Source of the DNA: Alphaproteobacteria bacterium
Lineage (GTDB): Bacteria; Pseudomonadota; Alphaproteobacteria; Rs-D84
Length of the DNA stretch: 64,000 bases
NCBI GenBank assembly: GCA_017615655.1
Contig: JAFZZS010000003.1
Location: forward strand, 1-64,000
Reading direction: 5' to 3'
Shown here: piece after piece, positions 4,400 through 36,500 of the stretch
Layout of the letters: each line of letters starts with the position of its first letter
Position numbering within the stretch: position 1 is the first letter of the stretch
Position numbers and translations under genes: made by a program
The notes under the pieces: model-generated
Databases searched by the model: none
What the model was told of the DNA's origin: nothing
The model's input: the letters and a program-made list of their open reading frames with translations, nothing else

Positions 4400-7009
4400 A
4401 TGGGAAAAAATATTATTCAACGAATTTTAGGGTCTGCAAATGACCGTATTGTTAAATCTTATGATAAAACTGTTTCAATAATAAATGATTTGGAACCTAA
4501 ATATCACGCAATGTCTGACGATGAATTGCGTGCACAAACTGATATTTTGCGGGCAAGATTGCGTGATGGTGAAAAAGAGAAAAATGTTTTGCCCGATGCG
4601 TTTGCTCTTGTGCGCGAGGCATCAATTAGAACTATCGGGTTGCGACACTTTAATGTTCAGATGATTGGTGGTATGGTTTTGAATAATGGGCAAATTGCCG
4701 AAATGAAAACCGGCGAAGGCAAAACCCTTGTCGCAACATTAGCACTGTACCTTAAGGCGCTGTATGGTAAGGGGGCGCATTTGATTACGGTTAATGATTA
4801 TCTAGCATCGCGTGACGCAAAGTGGATGGGGCAAATTTATACGTTTTTAGGGTTGTCGGTTGGCATTATTCAACATGATATGACCGACGAAGAACGGCGT
4901 GCAGCGTATGCATGTGATATTACCTATGTTACCAATTCTGAACTGGGCTTTGATTATTTGCGCGATAATATGAAGTTTTCCAAAGAACAACAAGTATTGC
5001 GCCCGTTGTTTTATGGTATTGTTGACGAAGTTGATAGTATTTTAATTGACGAGGCACGCACGCCCCTTATTATCTCGGGACCATCCGAAGATATCAGTGA
5101 GCTTTATGCCAAAGTTGATGATGTTGTAAAAAAATTGAACCCTGATGATTATAAAAAAGACGAAAAAGATCGGCATGTTACATTGACTGAAACAGGTGTT
5201 GATTCTGTAACACATTTGCTATCGGATGCAGGGTTATTGGTTGGCGACAATTTGTACGCACCAGAAAACGCGGCACTGGTTATGCATATTCAACAATCTT
5301 TGCTAGCGCATCATTTGTTTCAAAAGAATGTAAATTATGTTGTGCGTGATGGCGAGGTTCTGATTGTAGATGAGTTTACTGGTCGTGTTATGACTGGGCG
5401 TCGTTTTGGACGCGGATTACACCAGGCGATTGAGGCCAAAGAACATGTGCGTGTTCAACCAGAAAATCAAACCGTATCAAGTATTTCATACCAAAATTTG
5501 TTCCGTTTATATCAGACACTGGCAGGTATGACAGGGACTGCAATGACCGAAGCCGCGGAATTCGAAGAAATTTACAAATTGCGCGTGGTTTCTATTCCTA
5601 CTAATCGTCCGGTGGCACGTGCTGATCATCATGACGAGATATATCTTAATAAACAGGAAAAATATGCGGCTATTATTAAGCAAATAGATGAATGTCTTAA
5701 AAAGCAACAACCTGTTTTGGTTGGTACAGTTTCAATTGAAAAATCTGAAGAACTTGCAGAAATTGTTCGCAAGGAATTGAAAATCAATCCGGCTGTATTA
5801 AATGCCAAGCATCATGAATCCGAAGCAAAAATTGTTGCACAAGCCGGTGCACCGGGTTCTGTAACAATCGCGACAAATATGGCAGGACGTGGAACAGATA
5901 TTAAATTGGGTGGAAATGCCGAAGATTTGATTGCTAATTTGGACAAGGATGCGCCAGATTTTGAAGAAAAAAAGAAAGAAATTTATGAAACCATAGAGCA
6001 AAATAGAAAGGTTGTACTTGATGCGGGTGGTTTGTATGTTATCGGAACCGAGCGTCATGAGTCACGTCGCATAGATAATCAGCTGCGTGGGCGCTCTGGA
6101 CGCCAAGGAGATCCAGGCGATTCAAAGTTCTTTTTAGCATTAGATGATGATTTAATGCGTATATTTGGGGCTGCACGCCTTAGTAGTATGCTAACAACCC
6201 TTGGTTTAAAACCGGGCGAAGCAATTACACATCCATGGATAACCAAGGCGTTAGAGAAAGCACAAAAGCGCGTCGAGGCACGGTATTTCGAGGCACGTAA
6301 AGAATTGCTAAAGTATGATGACGTCATGAATGAGCAACGCGGCGTTGTGTATAAGCAACGTGATGACTTGATGGTAAGTACAGATTTGGGACCGTTAGCC
6401 AAGGAAATGATAGGTGACGTTGTGGAAATTATATGCGAAAATAATATTCCAGAAAAGGCACAGCCAGCAGATTGGAATATCAAGGGATTACATGACGCAA
6501 TGGCGCGTATATTCGCTCTGGATATAACGGATATTGAAAACTGGAAGTCTGATGAAAATATAAATGAACGCAAGGCTTACAATGCACTTTATGAACTGGC
6601 AATGCAACGTTATCAAAGTCAGGCGAATAAATATGGTCCAGAAATGATGCAGATGGCAACACGGCAGATGATGTTAGGTGCATTAGATTCTGTGTGGAAA
6701 CAGCATTTACAACAGATGGATTATTTGCAGACAGGTATAGGTTTGCGTGGATATGCCCAAAAGAATCCGTTATATGAATATAAGCGTGAGGCGCTTGGAT
6801 TATTCAAAAACACGATAAATAATTTCAAGATAATGTCTGTTGCGTACATTTCTCGCATGGAATTGACGCGTGCGGATGTTGATGCCACCGAACAGCAACG
6901 TAACGAACATGACAGAAGTCTTAATGTTGCTGGTGAGGCGCGGCGTAATGCGCCCTGCCCATGCGGATCTGGTCTAAAATATAAGCACTGTCATGGGAAA
7001 TTAAAATAG
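4400..7009 (+). CDS. secA: Preprotein translocase ATPase SecA
   Basis: SecA is the cytoplasmic ATPase that pushes unfolded preproteins through SecYEG. The 869-residue length is normal. Visible landmarks are the Walker A region TGEGKT (~residues 103-109), VNDYLASRDA, the Walker B/DEAD-like DEVDSILIDEART (~209-221), ATNMAGRGTDI and GRSGRQGDPG of the second nucleotide-binding fold, and a C-terminal zinc-binding SEC-C tail (CPCGSG...KHCHG, ~852-865) that contacts SecB or phospholipid in known SecAs. The start is supported by AAGGA and by the family-typical N-terminus. It is monocistronic: promoter at 4346, hairpin terminator just after the stop. The many exported proteins in this window would depend on it. 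Confidence 0.98.
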   Translation: MGKNIIQRILGSANDRIVKSYDKTVSIINDLEPKYHAMSDDELRAQTDILRARLRDGEKEKNVLPDAFALVREASIRTIGLRHFNVQMIGGMVLNNGQIAEMKTGEGKTLVATLALYLKALYGKGAHLITVNDYLASRDAKWMGQIYTFLGLSVGIIQHDMTDEERRAAYACDITYVTNSELGFDYLRDNMKFSKEQQVLRPLFYGIVDEVDSILIDEARTPLIISGPSEDISELYAKVDDVVKKLNPDDYKKDEKDRHVTLTETGVDSVTHLLSDAGLLVGDNLYAPENAALVMHIQQSLLAHHLFQKNVNYVVRDGEVLIVDEFTGRVMTGRRFGRGLHQAIEAKEHVRVQPENQTVSSISYQNLFRLYQTLAGMTGTAMTEAAEFEEIYKLRVVSIPTNRPVARADHHDEIYLNKQEKYAAIIKQIDECLKKQQPVLVGTVSIEKSEELAEIVRKELKINPAVLNAKHHESEAKIVAQAGAPGSVTIATNMAGRGTDIKLGGNAEDLIANLDKDAPDFEEKKKEIYETIEQNRKVVLDAGGLYVIGTERHESRRIDNQLRGRSGRQGDPGDSKFFLALDDDLMRIFGAARLSSMLTTLGLKPGEAITHPWITKALEKAQKRVEARYFEARKELLKYDDVMNEQRGVVYKQRDDLMVSTDLGPLAKEMIGDVVEIICENNIPEKAQPADWNIKGLHDAMARIFALDITDIENWKSDENINERKAYNALYELAMQRYQSQANKYGPEMMQMATRQMMLGALDSVWKQHLQQMDYLQTGIGLRGYAQKNPLYEYKREALGLFKNTINNFKIMSVAYISRMELTRADVDATEQQRNEHDRSLNVAGEARRNAPCPCGSGLKYKHCHGKLK

Positions 7010-7061: not shown

Positions 7062-8432
7062 TTATTGTTTGTCTTTTTCAGATGCGGTTTTAGCGTGCTC
7101 TGCCATTTTTGACATTGCGATTACCATTTCCATACCGCGTTGCAATTGATAGTCTTTTGCATCTTTTTCTTCGTCGGTTAAATTTTCATCGTCGTCGTCA
7201 GTGTTTTTGACGTCTGTTTTATCAGCTTTCTTCTTAGCCTTTTTTTCTGCGGCTTCATTCTTTAAAGAGTTTCGAAACGACGCTTCGGAATAATTGCTTT
7301 CGCGTTTTTCAATTACTTCCAGTTTGCTTTGTAATACTTCTACATCTGGTGTGATTCCCGTATTTTGAATAGAAGTGCCACTTGGTGTGTAATAACGTGC
7401 AATTGTAATATGAATTGCAGTTCCGTCCCCCAAGGGTTTTTGTTGCTGTACACTGCCTTTACCAAAGCTTTGTGAACCCATTATGACACCACGACCATTA
7501 TCTTGAATTGCGCCTGCAACAATTTCTGATGCTGATGCTGAGCCGTGGTTTATAAGTACAACAAGTGGCTTACCGTTGGTTAAATCTCCGGGATTTGCAA
7601 AACTATGCTCTATATCATTCTTATCTTTTCCGCGTGTCGAGACTATTTCGCCACCATCAAGAAAAGCATCCGCAACATCGATTGCGGCTGTTAAATATCC
7701 ACCGGGATTGTTGCGCACATCAAGCAAGTATCCGGCAACATTCTTTTTTTCAAGTTTTGTAATTGCATCGCGTAAATCTTTAGCGGTTGTTGCCCCAAAG
7801 TCAGATATACGAATATACCCAATAACCGGGGTTTCGTCTTCAGCATCCGCAAGTTTTTTTTCACTAAACTTTACAGATTGAACTTTGATGATTGCGCGTT
7901 TAAGTGTGATTGTTTTTGGTTCTTTGTCTCCTGATATAACAGTTAGTTTGACTTTGGTCCCGGGGCGCCCTTTCATTTTCTTGACAGCTTGGTTCAGTGT
8001 TAAATCAAAGACAGGCTCATCGTCTATATGTGTTATGTAATCCCCTGCTTTGATACCAGCTTTTTGTGCAGGGGTGTCGTCTATTGGTGAAATAACACGG
8101 ACGGCGCCACGATCTGATGTAATTTGTATCCCCAGACCACCAAATTCACCATGTGATTTATCATTAAAATCTTTAAATTCATCTTTGGATAAATATGAAG
8201 AGTGTGGATCCAAGGCGCCAAGCATACCGTTCATGGCTCCTTCAAGCATTTTACGTTCGTCTGCTTCTTCTACAAAATTGTCGCGTGATACCTCAAATAC
8301 TAACGCCAATTTTTTTAATTCATCATAGATTTGCTCATCTGTTAAATGCTCTATTGGTTCAGTCTTTTTTTCTGCGCCGTTGACAACAAATGGAACAAAT
8401 AATGCAACAAGTATTAATAATTTCTTAATCAT
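7062..8432 (-). CDS. ctpA: C-terminal processing peptidase (S41 family, CtpA/Prc type)
   Basis: This is a 456-residue periplasmic serine protease. A signal peptide (residues 1-19, ending VNGA) is followed by the S41 N-terminal region, a PDZ domain (~95-170, GLGIQI and AGIKAGDYI), and the catalytic core. Family knowledge places the Ser-Lys dyad at Ser302 in GSASASEI and Lys325 in SFGKGSVQ; both are present. LLDVRNNPGG is the conserved core strand. The C-terminal ~70 residues are a highly charged Lys/Asp/Glu segment unlike the usual family end. The family trims or degrades exported proteins by their C-termini. AGGGG lies before the ATG. It is probably monocistronic. The symbol ctpA is by family; the substrate is unknown. 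Confidence 0.95.
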   Translation of the reverse strand: MIKKLLILVALFVPFVVNGAEKKTEPIEHLTDEQIYDELKKLALVFEVSRDNFVEEADERKMLEGAMNGMLGALDPHSSYLSKDEFKDFNDKSHGEFGGLGIQITSDRGAVRVISPIDDTPAQKAGIKAGDYITHIDDEPVFDLTLNQAVKKMKGRPGTKVKLTVISGDKEPKTITLKRAIIKVQSVKFSEKKLADAEDETPVIGYIRISDFGATTAKDLRDAITKLEKKNVAGYLLDVRNNPGGYLTAAIDVADAFLDGGEIVSTRGKDKNDIEHSFANPGDLTNGKPLVVLINHGSASASEIVAGAIQDNGRGVIMGSQSFGKGSVQQQKPLGDGTAIHITIARYYTPSGTSIQNTGITPDVEVLQSKLEVIEKRESNYSEASFRNSLKNEAAEKKAKKKADKTDVKNTDDDDENLTDEEKDAKDYQLQRGMEMVIAMSKMAEHAKTASEKDKQ

Positions 8433-8530
8433 TTCTTACCCCTGTGTTTTTTTTAGTGTATGGCATTTTATAATAAAAAAAATGCATCTGCAACTCGTTT
8501 TTGTGTTTTGGAAAGCCTGGGAATAAAACC

Positions 8531-8559
8531 TTGCTTTGATTTATATAATATTGTATAAT
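8531..8559 (+). promoter_or_regulatory. Promoter for mini-ORF and phosphotransferase-like gene
   Basis: TTGCTT and a perfect TATAAT are separated by 17 bp. The first downstream ATG (8567) is 7 nt beyond the -10 box, where transcription itself should begin, so the transcript is predicted to be leaderless. Confidence 0.65.
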
Positions 8560-8566
8560 TTTCCTG

Positions 8567-8590
8567 ATGATATTACGAAATAAATTATGA
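8567..8590 (+). CDS. Putative leaderless 7-codon mini-ORF
   Basis: ATG at 8567 opens MILRNKL and stops with TGA at 8588-8590, overlapping the next gene's ATG (8587) as ATGA. It lies at the predicted transcription start, and the next gene has no clear Shine-Dalgarno sequence. A ribosome finishing the mini-ORF could restart on the main gene. This is inferred from position only. Confidence 0.35.
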   Translation: MILRNKL

Positions 8591-9312
8591 GTAAAGTACC
8601 TTTCTATATCGGAAATTTTGTAGCGTGTTTTGTCCCTAATAACCGACGCAGGCAACGTGTTAGGGGTAATATAAATATAATGCTTTACCGTCCGCATATA
8701 TTTTCGTTGGTTAGGCGCGTATATGGAATAAAACCGATTAGTATAAAATTTATACGTCAGATAACATTAAATAGGGTTGTGTGCGTTGTTAATGATGAAT
8801 ATTATGTCAAGATTTTTCGTAACATTACTGTAAAGCAATTACAAAACTATAAATTCTTACTAGATTTTATACGCCCACACCTTAATGTTGAAATTCCAAA
8901 TATTACGGTTGACAACCGTATTCCAATGTACGTATGCAAAAAATTACCTGGGCGCGATATAAACGAATTTGATAAAGAATTTGTATTAAAACATGAAGAT
9001 AATATATTGAAACAAGTATTTAAAATAATTTCTGACTTACAAAGTGTTCCGGTGAATTCTGTACCAAATAGCGAAAGATTTTTGTTAAGTATGCAACCAG
9101 AACGGACAAAGGAAAAGCCCTCTATTCCATGTCCAGTATTAGCGCACTTTGATATGAATGAAACAAACTTTTTGTTTGATGATAAATTGAATATAATAAG
9201 TGTCATAGACTGGGACACAATTGCAATTGCGCAGAATCCTGATACAGATCGTAATATCTTTCTAAAATACTGGTCTGCTTATAAAAAACGTCAACCGAAA
9301 CGTATCAAGTAA
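8587..9312 (+). CDS. APH/choline-kinase-like phosphotransferase
   Basis: The 241-residue protein has the small-molecule kinase signature: Lys75 in EYYVKIF (ATP-binding position), Brenner motif H187-x-D189-x4-N194 (LAHFDMNETN) and the metal-binding DWD at 208-210 (ISVIDWDT). These are the catalytic loop and DFG equivalents of aminoglycoside phosphotransferase and choline kinase families. The substrate cannot be read from sequence; sugars, choline or lipopolysaccharide precursors are all possible. The N-terminal ~35 residues are basic with a pattern (FVACFVPN...RRQRVRGNI) that I recall from the start of some lipopolysaccharide sugar-transfer enzymes; that is memory, not a search. It is shorter than most APH proteins, with a reduced helical C-lobe. 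The ATG overlaps the mini-ORF stop, so translation may be coupled. dnaE follows 56 bp downstream from its own promoter. Confidence 0.75.
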   Translation: MSKVPFYIGNFVACFVPNNRRRQRVRGNINIMLYRPHIFSLVRRVYGIKPISIKFIRQITLNRVVCVVNDEYYVKIFRNITVKQLQNYKFLLDFIRPHLNVEIPNITVDNRIPMYVCKKLPGRDINEFDKEFVLKHEDNILKQVFKIISDLQSVPVNSVPNSERFLLSMQPERTKEKPSIPCPVLAHFDMNETNFLFDDKLNIISVIDWDTIAIAQNPDTDRNIFLKYWSAYKKRQPKRIK

Positions 9313-30010: not shown

Positions 30011-30568
30011 ATGAATTCCAATTTGCAAGTTATTTCTGGGGCATATCATGGTCGGAAATTGTTTCTGCCAGATGGTGCACGTCCAACGCAAAATCGTGCA
30101 CGCGCAGCGGTATTTAATATGCTGGCTGGAATTTTAACCCCTGGGGATGAAATATTCGCGTGGGATGCCTTTGGTGGCAGTGGCGCAATGGGAATTGAAA
30201 CCCTGTCTCGCTATGATAATTCCAGGGTTATTTTTACTGATACCTCTGATAAATCAATTAAAAGTATCCAAAAGAACACAACTGGTATTGCGGCAAATCG
30301 TATCTGTATTACCAAGACTGACGCGACAAAGGTAATTAAAAATCATGTCAATACAGTGAATTTGATCTTTGTCGATCCGCCTTATGAAGACGCAAATGTT
30401 GGTATTAGTTTTGTTGCCACTTTGGGACGTCTTGCTGTGCCGGGGACCATCGTTGTCCAAGAAATTGAAAACACAAATCAATATACCCCCGATGGTAATA
30501 AATGGGATATTTTGCGCGATAAAGTTTACGGGCGTGCACGCTTTATAATATTACGTAAGAAAAAGTAA
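30011..30568 (+). CDS. rsmD: 16S rRNA (guanine-966-N2) methyltransferase
   Basis: RsmD methylates N2 of G966 in the 30S subunit. The 185-residue protein shows the family's opening VISGAYHGRKL and the segment TQNRARAAVFNML. The S-adenosylmethionine loop AWDAFGGSGAMGIETLSR differs slightly from the usual DLFAGSGALG form. The catalytic IFVDPPYE lies near residue 122. No Shine-Dalgarno sequence precedes the ATG and only 17 bp separate it from the divergent tadA start, so its promoter must lie inside tadA or the mRNA is leaderless. Confidence 0.94.
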   Translation: MNSNLQVISGAYHGRKLFLPDGARPTQNRARAAVFNMLAGILTPGDEIFAWDAFGGSGAMGIETLSRYDNSRVIFTDTSDKSIKSIQKNTTGIAANRICITKTDATKVIKNHVNTVNLIFVDPPYEDANVGISFVATLGRLAVPGTIVVQEIENTNQYTPDGNKWDILRDKVYGRARFIILRKKK

Positions 30569-33363: not shown

Positions 33364-33380
33364 TCATTAATGGGTTAGTT

Positions 33381-33407
33381 ATGCGGGGCATCTGCCCCGC
33401 ATTTTTT
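33381..33407 (+). terminator. dnaK terminator
   Basis: A GC-rich stem (ATGCGGGG with CCCCGCAT) is followed by TTTTTT, 17 bp after the dnaK stop. Confidence 0.88.
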
Positions 33408-33447
33408 ATGCCAAATAAAAAATTTGAAAAAAATCGTAAAAATTTAC

Positions 33448-33477
33448 TTGCCCCGCCTTTGTCGATTTTGCTAGGCT
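33448..33477 (+). promoter_or_regulatory. Candidate promoter of the giant surface-protein gene
   Basis: TTGCCC and TAGGCT are 18 bp apart with TGC before the -10 box, matching the layout seen at secA, dnaE and 53736. The predicted start falls at the ATG of a 37-codon leader ORF. Confidence 0.5.
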
Positions 33478-33483
33478 TAAAGT

Positions 33484-33597
33484 ATGAAAGGAAGTGAAAT
33501 TCAACACAACCCGCGCAAATCAGGCCGTTTTTGCGGGTTTTGGCGTTTGATTTTACCGACACATTTCATAACACAGGTCTTCGGAGGGACACTATGA
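33484..33597 (+). CDS. Putative 37-codon leader ORF overlapping the giant gene start
   Basis: ATG at 33484 lies 6 nt after the candidate -10 box; the frame stays open for 37 codons and stops with TGA overlapping the giant gene's ATG as ATGA. The peptide is basic and aromatic (RKSGRFCGFWRLILPTHF). An inverted repeat AACCCGC/GCGGGTT followed by TTTT (about 33508-33542) lies inside it, as in attenuators. Unlike the other mini-ORF, the downstream gene has its own strong GGAGGG. No coding evidence beyond the frame and position. Confidence 0.35.
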   Translation: MKGSEIQHNPRKSGRFCGFWRLILPTHFITQVFGGTL

Positions 33598-36500
33598 GAC
33601 GGTTTTTAGGTATATTGTCATTTGGTTTGATTGCGTTATTTGCGAATGCAACTTATGCTACAAACTATAGCATCAGTTACGTATATAACGATCCCAAGTT
33701 TACTGGATATTCTTATGTTAGCTATATCAGAGGTACCGGTACACAATATATAAACACCGGGTATAATCCAACCGCGACCACAAGAACAGAAATTGATTTA
33801 CGTTTTTCATCGGACACATATAAATCAAGTGGTGGCAATACGATATTCGGCGTGACCGGTACCAGTGATAGCTATTATGTAAATTTTGGTAATGATTCAA
33901 ATCAAGGACTCATAATTTTTCCATGGACCTGTAAGTATCAGGTAAATGGATGCGCAGCAAATAATTTTAGTATCGCGTCAAACTTAAAAACCTCTAAACA
34001 AACATTGGTATTGGATGCTAAAAATAAGATCGCATTGTATGGATCAACAACGAAGTCTTTAACACAAACACCTGTTGTGCCGACGAATGCACCAATATAC
34101 TTATTCGCCTTGAACCATGCAGACAATAACTCAGCCACTATCTATGCTCGCAATAATTCGATGGATGTATATGGTACAAGAATTATTGAAAATGGAACAT
34201 TAAGACACAACTTCGTTCCTATGATGCGCAATTCAGATGGGGTCTGCGGTTTGTATGACATGATAGATCAAGAATTTTTCCCAAGCGAGACATCAACTGA
34301 TTTCATTTGTGGTGACGCGCTAGATGGTTTCCCAACCAGTTATATATCTGGCAATGGCGTGCATATAACGGGGCAACCAACACGCGCAGGATACGCCTTT
34401 GCGGGTTGGTGCACAGATTCGGCATTAACCGATTGTGCAATGACACAAACTATTTCAACAAGTGCCACCGGGAATAAAGTATTTTATGCTAAATGGGCGC
34501 AGTTAAACGACGTTGGTTATGTTTTGGGATACGGAAACCATACTACACCAGAATATTTATACTCTGGTGATGTTGTTCCAAGTGACTATTCACCGACCGC
34601 ATATATTCAAAACATATCATCAACCAGAAATGATACAAACACCATAGATCTTGGGTTTACGGGATATGGCCGCTGGTTGATTGATGCCCAGGGTATGACC
34701 GCACCATCAGGTTATAATTCAGTGCTGTTTGGCTATAATACCAGCAGTCCGATTGGATGGTTTGGGGCAAACCCCGATGGTTTCTGGGCGGCACCAAACG
34801 TGCTAGTATTTTCAACTTTATTTACAACACGTACCACAATTGATGCGACATATTCATCAGGTTCGGCCACTATTACCATTGGTGATCAAACAAAAACTCA
34901 AACTTTGTCCGCACTATCCCAGGGAACATGGCGATTCTTTAATTACGAAGGTAATAATCCAACACTTGCCAAAATGTTCAGTGCAAAGTTTTATCAAAAT
35001 AATGAATTGAAATTTAATGGTATACCCGTTCGACGCAATAGTGATAATGTTTGTGGTATATATGATACAGTATCCAAGGCGTTCTTTACCAGCAGTGCAA
35101 AAACCAATTTTGTTTGCCCCGAATCGCGTACCCCCGACCAGTATGCCAGTGGCATTGCCAAAACAATTACATATATTCCACAAAGCGAAAACCAAAATCT
35201 TGAATTTGCGGGATGGTGTACGGATGCGACATTGACAGATTGTTCAATGAACCCAACAATTCCGACAAATGCAACCGGTCCACAAATATTTTATGCAAAA
35301 TGGTCATCTGGTGTGATAACTTATGTCACCAACGGGGGCAGCGTTTATAACACATCTGTTGTTCCCACCGCAGATTATACGCCAGTTGAATATTTGCAGA
35401 GTAACAGTTATTCATATATAAACACTGGTATTACCGGGCTTAACAGTGGAACATGGGAAATATATATCAAATGGATGATGACAAATGTTCCGCGCACAAC
35501 TAATGCATGGATTGTTGGTGAATATTATAATAATGGCAATACTTCGTCGTATCGTGTTGCCGCTATGAACAAACGGACAGATTATTATTATATTGATGCG
35601 GGTAACCGGTATAATCAAGCAAAGGGCATTACACTTTATCCAAATAAAATTCACGAGGTAACGTTAAAAAATAGATCATTTGTTGCGGACGGTGTAACAA
35701 CATCAGCGTCAACCGATTCAGCAAATGCTATATCGGCCAGTACACCAATCATGATATTTGCAAGTACGTCCAGTGGTGGCGATGCCGGCGTATATGGTCG
35801 TTTGTATGCATCATGGGCCAAGAAAGGTGGTGTATTACAATATAACTATGTTCCTGTGCGTCGTAACAGTGATGGTGTTTGCGGTATGTATGATACGGTT
35901 ACCGCAACATTTAAACCAAGTTCAAACGGAATTAATTTTTCATGTCCAAACACCGCTGTGTCTACGCCAGCAACATATACATACGGCGTTGCAACGACAA
36001 TATCGGGTGGTGCAACAAACTTGCATGGAACATTGGATGGATGGTGCACCGATGCGGCATTAACTAATTGTGCAGCCAGTCAAACAATTCCTGCAAATTC
36101 GACCGAAAACCAAACATTCTATGCAAAATGGATTTGTGATGATGGGTATCATATGGATTCTGTAACCCACGAATGTGTTCCGAACACAATTACCATGACA
36201 TTTGCAAATGGTGGACATGGAACTGCACCTGCATCAATGACATGCACATATGGTTCATCGGTTACTTTGCCGGCGGCGATTGATGATGCAACCGGGTATA
36301 ATTTCCGCGGATGGAAGATTAATGGTAAATGGTTTACGGCAAATACCGCATATATTTGCAGTTATGAAAATTTTGGGGTTTATGATACAACTGCTAACTT
36401 TGTTGCCGATTGGTATGAATGTATGGATCCGGGCGATGGTTCATGCGTTGACACTAAATTTAGTGTCACAACAACGCCACTGGGGGCAGACACAACATTT

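Follow-up and report, generated by a model that had tools for sequence, protein, structure and literature searches.

In mycobacteria, in which leaderless initiation is common, leaderless small ORFs of 5 to 50 codons are coupled to the following gene by an RTGA overlap. Shell et al. (2015, PMC4633059) measured transcription start sites and ribosome occupancy there and reported that the class is overrepresented, with the linkage preserved across species in some cases. In Escherichia coli, rhaB is preceded by an 8-codon frame that lies 1 nt from the 5′ end and overlaps the gene as ATGA; the frame is reported to be translated at 2.2% of the level of the gene, and knocking out its 5′ AUG changed expression by +4% (Beck et al. 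2016, PMC4965119). For genes that overlap as ATGA, termination-reinitiation is described as widespread, and the contribution of the Shine-Dalgarno (SD) site differs from pair to pair (Huber et al. 2019, PMC6728339).

A layout comparable to these was found before a kinase-like gene in the window, i.e., the whole 64,000-nucleotide stretch of DNA analyzed, which comes from a genome of 954,905 bases (13 contigs; 94.6% complete). The features of the locus are as follows.

8520 to 8525, + strand: GGAATA box, 5 nt 5′ of the −35; the box plus CTTG recurs in orthologs
8531 to 8536, + strand: −35 hexamer TTGCTT, aligned with TCTTG of relatives
8554 to 8559, + strand: −10 hexamer TATAAT, 17 bp after the −35
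8566 to 8567, + strand: predicted transcription start, G8566 or A8567, placed from the −10 position
8567 to 8590, + strand: mini-ORF MILRNKL, 7 codons, with a TGA that overlaps the next start as ATGA
8587 to 9312, + strand: APH-fold kinase-like gene (PF01636), 241 aa, without an SD site

The arrangement is as originally predicted: the mini-ORF runs from an ATG at 8567 to 8569 to a TGA at 8588 to 8590, which shares an ATGA with the ATG of the kinase-like gene (8587 to 8589). The two ATGs are 20 nt apart and in different frames, which rules out an N-terminal extension of the kinase-like gene from 8567. The kinase-like identity also held, with a Pfam score for PF01636 of 35.3 bits against a gathering cutoff of 23.2. 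Residues H187, D189, N194, D208, and D210, which we take to be those of the HxDxxxxN / DxD motif of APH phosphotransferases, are invariant across nine aligned sequences. The solved relatives recovered by profile are only distant ones (the APH domain of AAC/APH).

To place the locus among its relatives, we assembled 33 ortholog loci and then added four distinct upstream regions, giving 37 other orthologs plus the window (38 rows, de-duplicated by the last 40 upstream bases). The added search covered 156 genus genomes, 37 of which matched at 1e-50, the window's own genome included. Two loci were left out of the count, L169 with its start missing and L167 without an ATG near the start; a second search returned further matches without loci, several from genomes already in the set. 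By their titles, most records are of uncultured (alpha)proteobacteria and two are of Rickettsiales; many were sampled from rumen or gut. The nearest orthologs are 62% identical to the kinase-like protein.

The start of the kinase-like gene is secure because its N terminus aligns in nine orthologs. The claim that this gene lacks a ribosome binding site was borne out by an SD duplex energy with the anti-SD core of −0.7 kcal/mol, the second weakest of the 38 rows; most of the best-aligned relatives have SD-like sites. A leaderless start of the kinase-like gene itself was rejected: by eye, no −10-like hexamer ending in T lies ~7 nt before 8587, and relatives with a clear promoter have leaders of ~25 to 36 nt past the −10. 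As for the surroundings, the gene order in the window is secA (4400 to 7009), an S41 peptidase gene (7062 to 8432), and the kinase-like gene. In 20 of the 37 other orthologs, the SEC-C end of secA lies at most 1,500 bases upstream, and in 17 of these the distance is at most 132 bases; in the window, the S41 peptidase gene intervenes on the other strand.

We then asked whether the mini-ORF begins where the transcript does, as the original prediction held. Its ATG starts 7 nt past the −10 of a conserved promoter, which puts the predicted +1 at G8566 or A8567, at the same spacing as the genus-wide peak of leaderless genes described below. This part of the claim therefore stands for a predicted start site. 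The −35 matches TTGACA at 3/6 positions, and a simple promoter scan missed the window promoter for this reason. Given this modest −35 and a second TATAAT hexamer 10 bp upstream (8544 to 8549), transcription might instead begin elsewhere, from the upstream hexamer or with another sigma factor, and the ATG would then be an unread, SD-less codon inside the leader. However, a −35 at a spacing of 17 bp precedes the downstream TATAAT alone, and in the alignment these two hexamers match TCTTG...TATAAT of relatives; we regard a start elsewhere as improbable.

The −35, the −10, and the upstream box all recur when the upstream regions of the orthologs are compared. A TTG/−10 pair was identified by rule in 26 of the 38 rows, and the best-aligned group has the GGAAT box, CTTG, and −10 in common. 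Strict GGAATA-type boxes occur in seven rows (window included), with a TGAAT variant in two more. The form that includes the −35, GGAAT[AT]-N3-[TC]CTTG (window positions 8520 to 8534), is also present in L030, L031, L033, L036, L037, and L039, and the TGAAT form in L040 and L041; the box-bearing relatives show ~52 to 61% protein identity. The box is rare outside the kinase promoter: the 1.864-Mb genus sample (defined below) holds seven strict matches, and the one followed by a −10 is that of the window. This conserved motif is possibly a regulator site. A genome-wide regulon was rejected: of six matches across the window's genome, only two have a plausible gene behind them. Folding of the leader does not exceed that of its shuffles (z, +0.8), and a search of the window for riboswitches or other known RNAs in Rfam matched only a tRNA.

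The promoter is shared, and the mini-ORF is not. Among the 38 rows, only the window, L031, and L041 have an upstream ATG, at most 60 nt away, whose frame ends in an ATGA overlap with the gene. The L031 frame opens at −14, within the SD of its gene and 12 nt past its −10, and the L041 frame opens at −47, 5′ of its −10. One of the 37 other orthologs (L031) thus has such a mini-ORF within the predicted transcript, at a position different from that in the window, and none of the 37 has one at the start site. An ATG at offsets 6 to 7 past the −10 is likewise confined to the window; at offset 5, ATGs occur in L036 (in frame with the gene), L050 (AUG-stop), and L163 (two codons), none of them with an ATGA overlap. 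The original prediction expected relatives to keep the distance to the ATG and the overlap while the peptide changed, and named their loss as evidence against it. Neither is kept in the orthologs, and we reject a conserved peptide or device.

Whether 5′-terminal AUGs are used in this genus was examined in a 1.864-Mb sample of 11 genus genomes, with mechanical gene calls. It comprised the window, a 200-kb segment of a different contig from the window's genome, and 80 pieces of 20 kb each drawn from ten further genomes of the genus. At 1,794 intergenic-like sigma-70 promoters, ATGs opening frames of at least 100 codons numbered 48 at offset 7 and 18 at offset 6, against a background of about 5 per offset (3 to 8) at offsets 11 to 17, and leadered genes formed a broad peak at offsets of ~20 to 32. 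The excess of long ORFs at offsets 6 to 7 was seen in the own-genome sample (9 versus 2.2 expected; P = 4e-4) and, over the initial 800 kb of sequence, in the other genomes (40 versus 10.8 expected; P = 8e-12). Because long ORFs peak 6 to 7 nt past the −10, the genus very probably uses leaderless initiation as a matter of course, and this habit makes ribosome entry at the 5′ AUG of the mini-ORF probable. Leaderless candidates in the window itself are found at 30011 (PF03602), 59894 (DUF2155), and 62449.

Before SD-led genes, the same offsets are poor in out-of-frame ATGs. At offsets 6 to 7, we counted 0 out-of-frame ATGs versus 61 ATA, ATT, or ATC triplets, compared with 60 versus 292 elsewhere (P = 4.5e-5; 271 promoters), a contrast that overstates the avoidance. 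A check by column frequencies gave a milder figure: in 293 promoters, 8.7 ATGs were expected at offsets 6 to 7, ~5.8 of them out of frame (two thirds of 8.7, by hand), and three in-frame and no out-of-frame ATGs were seen. The avoidance is present in both halves of the other-genome sample (P = 0.026 and 0.009) and shows weakly in a promoter set without a −35; the own genome alone, with 0 ATG versus 5 ATA/ATT/ATC at offsets 6 to 7, has too few cases. A literature search for published avoidance of 5′-terminal AUGs found nothing on point, which is a weak negative.

This scarcity suggests that 5′-terminal AUGs are read and are usually selected against, presumably at a cost in expression. The window, where the gene behind the AUG no longer has an SD, would be an exception. 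The scarcity raises the odds that the mini-ORF and the kinase-like gene are translated jointly, although one case cannot show selection. A bolder reading is that the leaderless habit purges 5′ out-of-frame AUGs throughout this genus of ~1-Mb gut alphaproteobacteria and that the kinase-like gene tolerates one because the AUG and the ATGA frame took over from an SD that was given up. We consider it unlikely.

How often would such a frame arise by chance? In shuffled versions of the 27-nt leader, an ATG...ATGA frame appeared anywhere in 8.2% and at exactly −20 in 0.9%. Of the 148 genes called mechanically in 264 kb from the window's genome, 60 have an ATGA start. In 9 of these, an ATG frame that opens no more than 30 nt upstream overlaps the start; Markov shuffling predicts 7.0 ± 2.3. 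Coupled mini-ORFs are not enriched at start sites either: among the 10 short frames at offsets 6 to 7 with a long gene behind them in the 1.864-Mb sample, one is coupled (that of the window), versus 30/232 elsewhere (Fisher P = 1). In the genus sample, 26/309 leadered starts have an SD energy at or above −0.7, and reinitiation is therefore not required to explain translation of the kinase-like gene. Long gene pairs coupled by ATGA have a median SD energy of −4.4, with 9/34 weaker than −2. A further SD statistic, for starts chosen mechanically, is biased toward strong SDs because SD guided the choice, and its proportions were left unused. Contig C9 of the own genome (sample 1 to 200000) carries two near-identical promoter regions on the + strand, at ~90371 and 113461, in which an ATG 4 nt past TATAAT opens an ATGA-overlapping 9-codon frame with SD-led genes behind. 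This pair is apparently a duplicated gene.

These rates bear on the possibility that the frame has no role, with the kinase-like gene started directly and SD independently in an AU-rich region and the mini-ORF read little or not at all. The 8% of shuffled leaders that yield a frame, the chance level of overlapping frames in the own-genome sample, the frequency of SD-less leadered starts, and the lack of conservation would all fit. On the other hand, the AUG sits at precisely the spacing seen for leaderless genes, and out-of-frame AUGs are scarce there before SD-led genes, which makes an inert one less expected. We hold a frame without a role to be quite possible.

The mini-ORF layout had also been said to recur before the giant gene of the window, which exceeds 6,300 codons and carries a Listeria-Bacteroides repeat close to its start. 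The relevant features are as follows.

33484 to 33597, + strand: 37-codon frame with an ATGA overlap with the ATG at 33594 and a terminator-like hairpin inside
33583 to 33588, + strand: GGAGGG, a strong SD 5 nt ahead of the ATG of the giant gene

The strong SD sets this gene apart from the mini-ORF layout, and TAGGCT, the would-be −10, is a weak one; the claim was dropped. With its internal hairpin, the 37-codon frame might encode a leader peptide that acts by attenuation. A DNA search with 33380 to 33760 against 96 genus genomes returned, besides the window, no matches other than short ones within the first 72 bases of the query.

The original prediction interpreted the layout as a device in which a leaderless start loads the ribosome and reinitiation starts the main gene. 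The physical layout and the leaderless habit of the genus support it, and conservation and enrichment do not. In its broad form, a conserved load-and-hand-over device like that of mycobacteria and recurrent in the genus, it could draw on the frequency of leaderless starts and on the second ATGA-overlapping mini-ORF in L031. It is very improbable given the absence of the layout at the start site in 37 other orthologs, the 1/10 versus 30/232 comparison, and the SD of the giant gene. The layout is a real sequence with a plausible mechanism in one species and is neither conserved nor recurrent.

We favor, at a probability of roughly 45%, a species-specific, nonconserved upstream frame at the 5′ end, with ribosome entry there and partial reinitiation on the kinase start. 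The promoter would be ancestral; in the window species, the SD of the kinase-like gene would have decayed, and an AUG would stand at the first or second base of the transcript. Ribosomes would probably begin at this AUG, read seven codons, and terminate at the overlapping UGA, and some of them may reinitiate on the kinase AUG; the remaining expression would come from direct, SD-independent initiation on the A/U-rich leader. In favor of this reading count the layout itself, the orthologs (which keep the promoter, have an SD, and lack the start-site AUG), the genus-wide peak of leaderless starts, the scarcity of out-of-frame ATGs before SD-led genes, and a leader folded no more than its shuffles. 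Against it stand the 8% chance rate, the frequency of SD-less leadered starts, the SDs that ATGA-coupled long pairs usually bear, and the independence of rhaB from its 5′ AUG, although rhaB has an SD.

If the kinase-like gene is fed by its 5′-terminal frame, the locus would be a small natural example of an initiation mode replaced between sister species. The leaderless starts, which appear common in the genus, and the apparent avoidance of 5′-terminal AUGs before SD-led genes bear on the annotation of gene starts and may matter more than the mini-ORF itself.

Compared with the coupled ORFs reported from mycobacteria (PMC4633059), the window has the small ORF (7 codons, within the 5 to 50 range), the TGA-start overlap of the RTGA type, and an organism that, on statistical grounds, uses leaderless initiation. 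Its ATG lies at offset 7 of a conserved promoter, where the transcript is predicted to start, as against measured starts in mycobacteria. It differs in that the class is not overrepresented at start sites, and the orthologs are without the layout, i.e., the linkage is not kept between species. The likeness to rhaB, as described in PMC4965119, lies in the length of the frame (7 codons here), its distance of 0 to 1 nt from the predicted 5′ end, and the ATGA overlap; rhaB, however, has an SD and is independent of its 5′ AUG, whereas the window gene has no SD. With the ATGA pairs covered in PMC6728339, the window shares the stop and start joined in ATGA, but those are ordinary gene pairs and the window has a 7-codon, predicted leaderless frame. 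The layout belongs, at most, to a kind already described in other bacteria.
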